From positions 248,001 through 312,000 of the forward strand of contig NZ_JAERSG010000005.1 of NCBI RefSeq assembly GCF_016735675.1: a stretch of DNA of 64,000 nucleotides, given 5' to 3'. The first letter of the stretch is position 1; every line of letters begins with the position of its first letter. The notes under the pieces were generated by a model that did no database searches, had not been told where the DNA came from, and saw nothing but the letters and a program-made list of their open reading frames with translations. Source of the stretch: Nocardioides baculatus. Its GTDB lineage: Bacteria; Actinomycetota; Actinomycetes; Propionibacteriales; Nocardioidaceae. Position numbers and translations under genes: made by a program. Below are positions 10,672 through 41,127 of the stretch, one piece after another.

Positions 10672-11604
10672 TCAGGCCTGGCGGGCCGCCTTCTTGGCCT
10701 CGGCCTCGGCGCGACGCTCGACGAAGCGGGTCGCCTCAGCGTCGAGCGCAGCGACTGCGGCAGCGAGCTCGTCGCGCGCCTTCTCGCCGTCCTCGTCGAG
10801 ACCCTCGAGCTCCCAGACACCCCACTGGCGGAGCAGTGGCGTGACGATGTCGTCGTGGTGGATCCGCAGGTCGTAGATGCCCGCCTTGGCCATCTGCACG
10901 GCCTTGCGGGAGAAGCCGGGGATCACGCTGCCGGGCATCTGGAAGTCGACGACCTCCTCCGTGATCGCCCGCATCGTCTGGCTGGGGGTGAGCTGGAGGG
11001 CGGCCGTCACGATGTTGCGGTAGAACAGCATGTGGAGGTTCTCGTCCTTGGCGACGCGGCTCAGCAGCTTCTCCGCGATCGGCTCCTCGGTGTAGCGGCC
11101 GGTGTTGCGGTGCGAGATGCGGGTCGCGAGCTCCTGGAAGGAGACGTAGGCGCAGACGTTGAGCAGTGACTTGTCGAGCGCCTCGTAGCCGGTCTCCATC
11201 GTCTCCATCCGGGCCCGCTCGAGCTCGACGGGATCGACGCCTCGGGTGACCAGGAGGTAGTCGCGGATGCAGAAGGCGTGCCGACCCTCCTCCGCGGTCC
11301 ACCGGTTGACCCACGTGCCCCACGCGCTGTCCCGACCGAACGCCCGGTCGATCTCGCGGTGGTAGCTCGGCAGGTTGTCCTCGGTCAGCAGGTTGACCTC
11401 GAGCGCCGTACGCGCGATGGGCGAGAGCTGCGACTGGGCGACCTCCCACGGATCACCGCCGAGGTCGGCGAAGTCGCGCCCGAGGCTCCACGGGACGTAC
11501 TCGTGCGGCATCCACTCGTCGGCCGTCGCGAGGTGCCGGTTGAGGTTCTCCTCGACCACCGGCTCGAGCTCGGTCAGCAGCTGTTCGGTCTCGAGTGCGG
11601 TCAT
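10672..11604 (-). CDS. Acyl-ACP desaturase (FA_desaturase_2, di-iron)
   Basis: 310 residues from ATG 11604 (MTALETEQLLTELEPV). It carries the soluble stearoyl-ACP desaturase di-iron ligands: an early Glu in LLTEDNLPSYH (about residue 75), the EEGRH motif (about 107-111), a second Glu in YVSFQELATRISH and the DENLH motif (about 194-198). The family inserts a cis double bond in acyl-ACP with O2 and ferredoxin; mycobacterial DesA1/DesA2 are relatives. The C-terminal 40 residues are a charged helix rich in Ala, Glu and Lys. No electron-transfer partner lies next to it. Confidence 0.9.
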   Translation of the reverse strand: MTALETEQLLTELEPVVEENLNRHLATADEWMPHEYVPWSLGRDFADLGGDPWEVAQSQLSPIARTALEVNLLTEDNLPSYHREIDRAFGRDSAWGTWVNRWTAEEGRHAFCIRDYLLVTRGVDPVELERARMETMETGYEALDKSLLNVCAYVSFQELATRISHRNTGRYTEEPIAEKLLSRVAKDENLHMLFYRNIVTAALQLTPSQTMRAITEEVVDFQMPGSVIPGFSRKAVQMAKAGIYDLRIHHDDIVTPLLRQWGVWELEGLDEDGEKARDELAAAVAALDAEATRFVERRAEAEAKKAARQA

Positions 11605-39905: not shown

Positions 39906-40502
39906 GTGACCGGCCGCATCCACCACCGCCCGATGACGCCGGGCGACGGCTTCTTCGACGAGATCATCGGCGGCGCCGACCCCGCGCAGGTGCGCGAGGC
40001 CGGCGACCTGGCCGCGACGATCCTGGTGCGCGGCGCCCGCGACTCCGACGACCCCGAGCTCGCGGAGCGCATCGTCCACCTCGCCGAGAGCGAGGGCCTC
40101 GAGACCCTCGCCGAGGTCTGGTCGGGTGCGCCGTCCGACACCCTCGCGGGCAGCCTGTGGCGACTGTTCCTCCTCCGCTCCTGGGTGTACGCCGCCCCGG
40201 AGCAGGTCGCGAGCGAGTACGACGCCGGCCACCGTCGCGTCGACGTCGCGCGGGTGGTCGCCGGCGTGGCCGACCCGCCCGGGCCCGACGAGCTGCGCCA
40301 CATGGTCGACGACGTCCTTCGTGGCATCGCCCGGGGCGACTTCGCCGTGACGCTCTTCCGAGCCGCCGCCTTCGCCCGCATCGTCGCCGCGGGCCGGGCG
40401 AGCCTCGGCGCGGCGACGCACGAGGAGATCAGCCGGATGCTCGTGCTCTCCGAGCAGCTCGAGGCCGCGGGTCAGGTGGAAATAGCGCACTCGCTGGGGT
40501 GA
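39906..40502 (+). CDS. Hypothetical protein
   Basis: 198 residues from GTG 39906, 9 bp after hrpA. A soluble all-helical protein: DEIIGGADPAQVREAGDLAAT, LFLLRSWVYAAPEQVASEY, ELRHMVDDVLRGIARGDF, FRAAAFARIVAAGRASLG. I recognise no catalytic motif. Its arrangement suggests co-expression with hrpA. The last codons fall into an AT-richer hairpin (TAGCGCACTC with GTGAGTCGCTA) that runs into the RNA-like element downstream. Confidence 0.7.
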   Translation: MTGRIHHRPMTPGDGFFDEIIGGADPAQVREAGDLAATILVRGARDSDDPELAERIVHLAESEGLETLAEVWSGAPSDTLAGSLWRLFLLRSWVYAAPEQVASEYDAGHRRVDVARVVAGVADPPGPDELRHMVDDVLRGIARGDFAVTLFRAAAFARIVAAGRASLGAATHEEISRMLVLSEQLEAAGQVEIAHSLG

Positions 40503-40507
40503 GTCGC

Positions 40508-40513
40508 TAAAAT
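40508..40513 (+). promoter_or_regulatory. Possible -10 element of the structured element
   Basis: TAAAAT, in a locally AT-rich stretch, ends 6 bp before the first paired base of the element at 40520. No good -35 is visible. A start of transcription near 40520 would put the closing stem at the RNA 5' end. Confidence 0.35.
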
Positions 40514-40519
40514 GGATCC

Positions 40520-40610
40520 TGAGTGCGTCGGGCTGTGGCAGCCCCGGGTCCCGAAATTAGCCGCTACGAGCGGCCACGCGCCGTGAGGCGCTCCCGGTCC
40601 GGCGCACTCA
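40520..40610 (+). ncRNA. Candidate structured RNA, multi-branched, 91 nt
   Basis: Perfect 8-bp closing stem TGAGTGCG (40520-40527) / CGCACTCA (40603-40610). Inside are three perfect hairpins: GGGCTG/CAGCCC (40530-40544, loop TGG), GCCGCT/AGCGGC (40560-40574, loop ACG) and GCGCC/GGCGC (40578-40591, loop GTGA), plus a possible 4-bp stem CGGG/CCCG (40545-40548 with 40593-40596) enclosing the last two. The linker CGAAATTAG is unusual for this genome. It does not have tRNA arms and I could not match it to a known riboswitch. The strand is uncertain because the fold is nearly symmetric. Confidence 0.5.
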
Positions 40611-40656
40611 TACACGTCTGGCCCATCCCCGGTGACCTGCGCTCTAGGCTCGTGGG

Positions 40657-41127
40657 ATGACGATCGGCAAGCGCGTCCGCGCCTTCTTCGGCTCCTCCGG
40701 CTCGAGCAGCTCGGGCAGCTCGGGCGGCTCGACCTCCGACGGCGCCCGCTACGCGCCCGAGGCCGACGGCGAGCCCGACCCGGGCGAGGTCGTCTGGGCG
40801 TGGGTGCCCTACGAGGACGACCCGACGCAGGGCAAGGACCGACCGGTCCTGCTGCTCGACACCGCCGGCCCGGGCGAGGGCGACGGATGGGTCGGTCTGA
40901 TGCTGAGCAGCCAGGACCACGACCGGGACGCCGAGGACGAGGCACGCCACGGTCGCCACTGGATGGACGTCGGCACGGGAGCCTGGGACAGCCAGCGGCG
41001 CCCCAGCGAGGTCCGGCTCGACCGCCTCATCCACCTCGAGCGCGACGCCATCCGCCGCGAGGGAGCCGCGCTGGACGAGACGACCTTCCGTGACGTGGCC
41101 GAGGCATGGCGTGGCCTCTCCCGTTAG
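40657..41127 (+). CDS. PemK/MazF-like protein
   Basis: 156 residues. A Ser/Gly linker (SSGSSSSGSSGGS) follows a basic amphipathic start. The PemK/MazF fold is suggested by DPGEVVWAWVPYEDDPTQGKDRPVLLL (here shown only for its PGEVVWAWVPYEDD and KDRPVLLL parts) and MLSSQDHD. MazF-type toxins cleave mRNA at short sites, but many actinobacterial PemK-like proteins of this long form have no partner, and no antitoxin gene of matching type is adjacent. The C-terminal half (ERDAIRREGAALDETTF) is helical. Start ATG 40657. Confidence 0.75.
   Translation: MTIGKRVRAFFGSSGSSSSGSSGGSTSDGARYAPEADGEPDPGEVVWAWVPYEDDPTQGKDRPVLLLDTAGPGEGDGWVGLMLSSQDHDRDAEDEARHGRHWMDVGTGAWDSQRRPSEVRLDRLIHLERDAIRREGAALDETTFRDVAEAWRGLSR

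Follow-up and report, generated by a model that had tools for sequence, protein, structure and literature searches.

What is encoded by the 91 nucleotides at 40520-40610, which lie beyond a gene for a 198-aa protein (39906-40502) and ahead of a PemK-like gene (40657-41127) in the window, that is, the whole 64,000-nt stretch of DNA analysed here? The initial annotation proposed a structured RNA not yet described, with a promoter box in front of it. This proposal is supported by homologues, by compensatory changes and by the spacing of the promoter, with the qualification that the Streptomyces member is probably the small RNA scr2952. We regard the segment as almost certainly a real structured RNA, and propose that it is a stand-alone gene whose product is a small, structured RNA about 91-97 nt long.

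At gathering thresholds, Rfam 15 has nothing at 40520-40610. Its only match in the window is ASdes at 11222-11289 (RF01781, 49.4 bits), possibly mere similarity of a desaturase-type gene. Relaxing the search to E 10 across 40400-40700 returned one weak minus-strand match at 40401-40458, off the RNA. Among relatives, none of 18 loci had a gathering-level match over the RNA, and seven loci searched up to E 5 gave three matches far under the cut-off, none of them over the RNA; for locus L088 there were three weak matches, one of which, a plant microRNA model, lay over the RNA at 16.6 bits (cut-off 65). A tRNA was rejected because the ARAGORN tRNA model yields 0 genes in the window. The absence of a match to a known riboswitch or tRNA, as first stated, thus stands: the Rfam covariance search produced no credible match and no tRNA was found.

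The + strand of the 91 nt folds at -53.1 kcal/mol against a shuffle mean of -39.9 (z -4.0; 0/200 shuffles as good), and the - strand reaches z -3.1, with one shuffle as good. In the alignments of relatives described below, G.U cells exceed A.C cells (70 versus 4 in the genus, 173 versus 21 in the class), an excess that identifies the + strand as the RNA. The promoter box and the predicted parts of the RNA are as follows.

40508..40513, + strand: -10-like box TAAAAT (TAnnnT), read from the sequence and from TAnnnT spacing in relatives
40520..40610, + strand: structured RNA, probably all or almost all of the transcript (model matches spanning 1-91 of 91)
40520..40535, + strand: P1 5' strand of the 16-bp closing stem (computed fold; double-sided changes in genus and class)
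40537..40541, + strand: P2 5' strand, GG, bulged C, AG (covariation of four P2 pairs)
40542..40559, + strand: J2/3 joining strand, with CCCCGGG at 40542-40548 nearly invariant
40560..40574, + strand: P3 hairpin GCCGC-TACGA-GCGGC (100% paired cells)
40575..40578, + strand: J3/4 joining strand, CACG (read; alignment columns)
40579..40590, + strand: P4 hairpin CGCC-GTGA-GGCG with GNRA loop (100% paired cells)
40591..40594, + strand: P2 3' strand (CU, CC), abutting P4 directly
40595..40610, + strand: P1 3' strand (computed fold; double-sided changes in genus and class)

Several elements of this fold differ from the original reading of an 8-bp closing stem with three perfect hairpins. The 8-bp stem is present as the outer half of a longer one: the true closing stem has 16 bp (40520-40535 with 40595-40610, including three G.U pairs) and is followed by a short second stem, P2, a covarying helix absent from the first fold. 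The proposed first hairpin (GGGCTG-TGG-CAGCCC) is not part of the conserved structure, since it is fully pairable in only 8/39 genus members and uses the inner half of the P1 5' arm, so that it competes with the covarying P1. The second hairpin, GCCGC-TACGA-GCGGC, was confirmed by pairing in all 99 distinct class sequences (alignment A7). For the third, the inner four pairs (CGCC-GTGA-GGCG) likewise hold in 99/99 class sequences, and its outermost pair does not, being unpaired in 31/98 class cells; the outermost 3' base pairs better with P2 (79/98 Watson-Crick), the combinations at 40541-40591 among 98 sequences being G-C 50, A-T 23, C-G 5 and T-A 1. In the computed fold, CGGGTCCCG makes a weak hairpin of 3 bp; it reads CGGGTCCCA in 35/39 genus sequences, and the first G of CGAAATTAG is unusual, occurring in 3/39 genus rows.

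Homologues are plentiful within the source genus and the core of the RNA, 40526-40604, is retained there nearly base for base while the flanks diverge. BLASTN with 40490-40640 matched 59/59 genus genomes, own genome included, with best E values from 4e-74 to 4e-17. Compensatory change, proposed at the outset as the test of the structure, exceeds shuffled expectation both in the genus and more widely. In the genus test (38 distinct sequences; structure of P1, two P2 pairs, P3 and P4), 98.8% of cells were paired, and double-sided changes occurred in 9/17 pairs of helix 1, that is, P1 plus the two P2 pairs. The covariation score was 0.221 versus 0.149 in shuffles (0/500 reach it) and 0.012-0.080 with slid partners; the count of further pair types was unexceptional (52/500 shuffles equal it). 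All nine double changes fall within the closing helix, and P3 and P4 are almost constant among genus members and so contribute little covariation information there.

The class alignment (100 sequences) extends the test to more divergent relatives. Double changes were found in 15/15 P1 pairs, with a score of 0.438 versus 0.154 shuffled, although 30/500 shuffles equalled the number of double-changed pairs, and one P3 pair switches from C-G (78) to U-A (21). This alignment was fitted to P1, P3 and P4, so its counts lean towards these helices; P2 was unpaired in the alignment model and its counts are free of that lean. Across its four pairs, P2 has 78.1% paired cells, 68 double-changed cells versus 19.7 shuffled, and a score of 0.412 versus 0.179 (0/500 shuffles), with slid versions at or below 0.083. 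Its counts of pairs and pair types were matched by 490/500 and 169/500 shuffles, respectively, as expected with four variable pairs. Both innermost P2 pairs form in 75/100 ungapped sequences, one of them in 15 and neither in 10. For the complete structure in the class, the score is 0.433 versus 0.157 shuffled. Because P2 ends where P4 starts on the 3' side, stacking of the two is probable. Sequence comparison thus gives a three-way junction from which P3 branches off.

Conservation is concentrated in the joins and loops of this junction, and stem sequence is free to vary across the class. In the CCCC-S-GG strand, CCCC is kept in 98-100 of 100 class sequences per place, S is G in 89 and C in 11, and GG is kept in all 100; in the tail of the strand, nnYCA, C is present in 100 and A in 99. 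The P3 loop YNNGA has its G in 100/100 and its A in 99/100, and the P4 loop G-[A/T/C]-G-A conforms to GNRA in 99/100, the exception having C at the third place. A possible resemblance between CCCGGGCCU and 16S rRNA was considered and set aside because most subgroups lack it.

The family has so far been found only in the class of the source organism. A covariance model built from 39 genus sequences (R1) matched 169/296 class genomes at E 0.01, and a second, built from 100 class sequences (R2), matched 238/393 class genomes selected for completeness of at least 90%, mapping to 69/122 genera. R2 also matched 31/396 genomes of a phylum sample, and 31/31 belong to this class; at least seven further class genomes in that sample had no match. 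The large model searches ran with stricter filters, so weak matches were lost in them. With 155/393 class genomes unmatched by R2, including one of the source genus (G754), the RNA is not universal at this sensitivity. An exact-pattern scan of a contig collection found at least 120 stretches. The 80 titles among the matches listed are all actinobacterial by name, including Streptomyces, Nocardia, Gordonia, Microbacterium, Arthrobacter, Kocuria, Cellulomonas, Brevibacterium, Geodermatophilus and two Mycobacterium records, and R1 recovers the RNA in 80/80 of those listed matches.

Genomes usually have one match in the genus and class searches. The initial annotation had named a dispersed DNA repeat among the findings that would count against an RNA, and the element is not one: the own genome has a single strong copy, plus weak partial matches at E 0.007 and 0.59. 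Some genus genomes bear a weaker second match group (L031-L034), a paralogue with the same core. A longer second form, in which P3 is much longer, measures 117 nt in four Streptomyces-like genomes (f20) and 120 nt in one f38 genome (L242-L246), and a GGAAC-N18-GTT-like site can be read ahead of it in L242. We take the f20 genomes to be Streptomyces because their RNA and its neighbours match those of named Streptomyces loci. Elsewhere, the RNA occurs in two tandem copies (L114:1818-2088), both having a GGAA[TC]-GTT-type site of their own, and plasmid copies are found in two Rhodococcus fascians strains, one of them flanked by short hypothetical genes (L250:4001-4052), and on a 754-kb Arthrobacter plasmid. 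Carriage by phages was considered and rejected. The two INPHARED matches (L252, L253) are 73% GC stretches in unverified faecal scaffolds deposited in GenBank as ‘Bacteriophage sp.’, and since they also bear the neighbour gene they are probably pieces of bacterial chromosome; a search of viral contigs gave one stretch with the RNA, about 1 kb from the contig end.

The genes beside the RNA change from family to family. A linkage to hrpA-linked and PemK genes, on which the collection of homologues was originally to be based, does not hold outside near relatives. The window has a PemK-like gene, Arthrobacter has DUF47 with a phosphate transporter, and g8 has a carboxyltransferase-like gene (named by eye). 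A separate TAGGCT box appears to serve the PemK-like gene of the window, lying just a few bases ahead of the ATG (40640-40660), an arrangement resembling that of a leaderless mRNA. The upstream 198-aa protein has no Pfam or NCBIfam family; among 85 relatives, two touch DUF6895 and one TetR_C_33, weakly. Against PDB sequences it gives three weak matches only (best E 0.045), and its AlphaFold model, all-helical with a mean pLDDT of 84, matches no fold in the PDB at an E value of 0.001 or lower. PADLOC found nothing in either neighbour of the window RNA. Of 226 loci, 127 have the 198-aa gene upstream on the strand of the RNA, 16 have it downstream in convergent orientation and 3 have it upstream on the opposite strand; at 80 it was not found in the examined stretch. 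Nor was it found in 20 of 30 RNA-carrying genomes (f20, 8; f5, 8; f19, 3; f2, 1), for which reason it was rejected as an obligatory partner; the other ten have it, in G086 and G134 away from the RNA. Named Streptomyces loci are more uniform, with a helD-like gene adjoining the RNA in 21/21 and a gene for malic enzyme flanking it opposite in 20/21, the helD-like gene being the only neighbour found in the remaining one. The RNA points to the malic-enzyme gene in most of them. It is inverted between the same two genes in 1/21 Streptomyces and 3/3 Kitasatospora loci, together 4/24 (L168, L135, L141 and L157).

Promoter-like sites accompany the RNA across these settings. In the window, the TAAAAT box reported earlier is indeed present at 40508-40513 (+), ending 6 bp ahead of the stem start at 40520 by our reading of the sequence; this copy has no clear -35 element and no GGAAT-N18-GTT upstream. 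TAnnnT precedes the RNA by 2-9 nt in 39/39 genus sequences (A3), most often at a spacing of 6 (13 sequences) or 7 (10). In the 222 unique loci whose upstream DNA was long enough, TAnnnT at the matching distance occurs in 170, compared with 479/4440 shuffles, and GGAA[TC]-N17-19-GTT in 82, compared with 1/4440 shuffles, with a spacing of 18 in 56; both are present in 57/222. We take GGAAT-N18-GTT to be the SigR/SigH (thiol-stress) consensus, and the sites here are assigned by that consensus. Counted by group, with a slightly different distance window and before four short-upstream loci were dropped to give the 222, the GGAA-type site is present in 9/61 genus, 22/49 class and 52/116 named loci. 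The genus figure, together with the window copy that lacks the site, indicates that stress control does not cover the whole family.

We infer the transcript ends from the promoter spacing and from the first nine bases past the closing stem, which in 100 sequences are T-richer (0.30, 0.24 and 0.20 versus about 0.15) and G-poorer. Downstream of the RNA there is a strong hairpin (z below -2 versus simple shuffles) at 97% of 37 Streptomyces-type loci and at 69% of 29 loci of the CCTCA, TACCA and CCCCA types, but at only 11% of 94 window-type loci and 12% of 66 others; with this hairpin so rare in window-type loci, the 3' end here is a putative one.

In the mechanism that we propose, the transcript would begin with the outermost 5' base of P1 or right beside it. 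The promoter here would be a -10 box of the housekeeping type, and in many relatives a thiol-stress site of the SigR/SigH type. P1 and P2 form one long stem on which P4, with its GNRA loop, probably stacks, and P3 branches off after the invariant single strand CCCCSGGnnYCA. The invariant junction, comprising the CCCCGGG strand, the YNNGA loop and the GNRA loop, would offer a compact binding surface for a conserved protein or ligand of the cell and so act in trans, and the amount of RNA would be expected to rise in thiol-oxidative stress in lineages with a SigR-type site. The changing neighbours, the inversion, the RNA’s own promoter sites and the Streptomyces-type following hairpin favour a trans-acting transcript, and an independent one is very probable. 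RNAs that hold a protein or a ligand usually combine fixed joins and loops with a stem that is free to change, so we lean somewhat towards binding rather than antisense as its mode of action. T-loop motifs have the form U-N-N-R-A, to which the P3 loop YNNGA can be likened. A more specific version, offered tentatively and rather unlikely in its full detail, is a class-wide ribonucleoprotein RNA, hitherto unrecognised and made on thiol stress in many lineages, in which the YNNGA loop and GG strand would form a tRNA-elbow-like T-loop contact docking on conserved translation, RNA-processing or transcription machinery.

The alternative that we take most seriously, while considering it unlikely, is a base-pairing small RNA in which the unpaired CCCCGGGnYYCA would be the seed for mRNAs in trans and the remainder a stabilising scaffold. 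Other C-rich small RNAs pair with mRNAs through such seeds, and here a long, C-rich strand hardly varies, at a locus that resembles those of small RNAs, with a stress-type promoter site and, in Streptomyces-type loci, a following hairpin. A seed alone, however, does not explain why two hairpins and their loops are about equally invariant, and the bases after CCCCGGG that would extend it differ between lineages. A regulator of RNA polymerase, similar to 6S or Ms1, is improbable. RNA polymerase of S. coelicolor is bound by the scr0792 RNA of about 85 nt (PMC11077062), which shows that RNAs this short are capable of it in the class; yet, for the conditions used, that study lists no polymerase-associated RNAs of S. 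coelicolor other than scr3559 and scr0792, the main Streptomyces copy of the present RNA sits instead at the helD/malic-enzyme locus, and the fold has no large internal bubble.

Control of the next gene in cis, by a leader, attenuator or riboswitch, is very improbable. The architecture, with its free closing stem and conserved junction, is riboswitch-like, and the orientation towards the malic-enzyme gene in most named Streptomyces loci would suit a leader, as would a premature transcription unit before a malic-enzyme gene of S. clavuligerus, suggested to be a riboregulator (PMC8269248) and lying at the same locus or another. Against this, the downstream gene differs between families, the 4/24 inversions between the same genes are incompatible with a leader of either, most Streptomyces-type loci have a hairpin after the RNA, and the PemK gene here has its own box near its start. 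The inverted-repeat shape, and nothing more, would fit a dispersed DNA repeat, a DNA binding site or a small coding sequence in place of an RNA, a reading that is hardly credible given the usual single match per genome, the G.U asymmetry of 70 to 4, one-base insertions within the genus that break the reading frame, and the covariation in genus and class.

A compact RNA with a strictly kept junction, present in 69 of 122 sampled genera and unmatched in Rfam, probably has a basic function, in a class that includes Streptomyces and the mycobacteria-Nocardia group. The link to SigR/SigH promoter sites offers a first condition for a phenotype search, and the covariance models enable annotation of further genomes. 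The results here establish the family with its fold, strand and distribution in the samples, its association with promoter sites and its varying neighbours, and ‘undescribed’ is qualified by the probable identity of the Streptomyces member with scr2952. We found no description of a class-wide family in the literature covered, which was largely open-access, and the available parts of PMC4046766, PMC5775266, PMC9205884, PMC11678152 and PMC3848588 contain nothing attributable to this RNA.

Several known systems resemble the RNA in part. Both ends of bacterial Y RNA (YrlA) close a long stem bearing a structured head, and the window RNA is similar. A search for the Ro/TROVE protein gave 0 matches in the own genome, the control search being positive in 1/14 genomes (Deinobacterium chartae), and with no TROVE protein there and no Rfam match, Y RNA was rejected. 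6S and Ms1 RNAs are built around a central bubble. They measure about 160-300 nt (PMC11077062), unlike the 91-nt three-way junction described here. 6C RNA is likewise an actinobacterial small RNA with conserved unpaired cytosines. It consists of two stem-loops, each containing at least six cytosines (PMC8388888), and the window RNA has no Rfam match. The scr0792 RNA, at about 85 nt, is of similar length and from the same class as the present RNA (PMC11077062); it is named for the SCO0791-SCO0792 interval, in contrast to the helD/malic-enzyme interval of the main Streptomyces copy. The second form of 117-120 nt (L242-L246) is a candidate for comparison with scr0792.

The closest counterpart is scr2952, listed among 11 S. 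coelicolor small RNAs with confirmed expression (PMC8388888). To judge from the places given for scr4677 (PMC8388888) and scr0792 (PMC11077062), an RNA called scrN lies between SCO(N-1) and SCO(N), which puts scr2952 between SCO2951, a malic enzyme (PMC7244524), and SCO2952, HelD (PMC8655204). The named Streptomyces loci fit this expectation, S. coelicolor itself not being among them. The helD-like and malic-enzyme flanks and the naming rule together indicate that the main Streptomyces member is probably scr2952, an identification by name and gene order rather than by sequence. According to PMC8388888, scr2952 is in Rfam, whereas Rfam 15 has no gathering match on L086-L088 and its weak matches on L088 are unrelated. 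The same source describes scr2952 as conserved in Streptomyces; the family described here spans the class.
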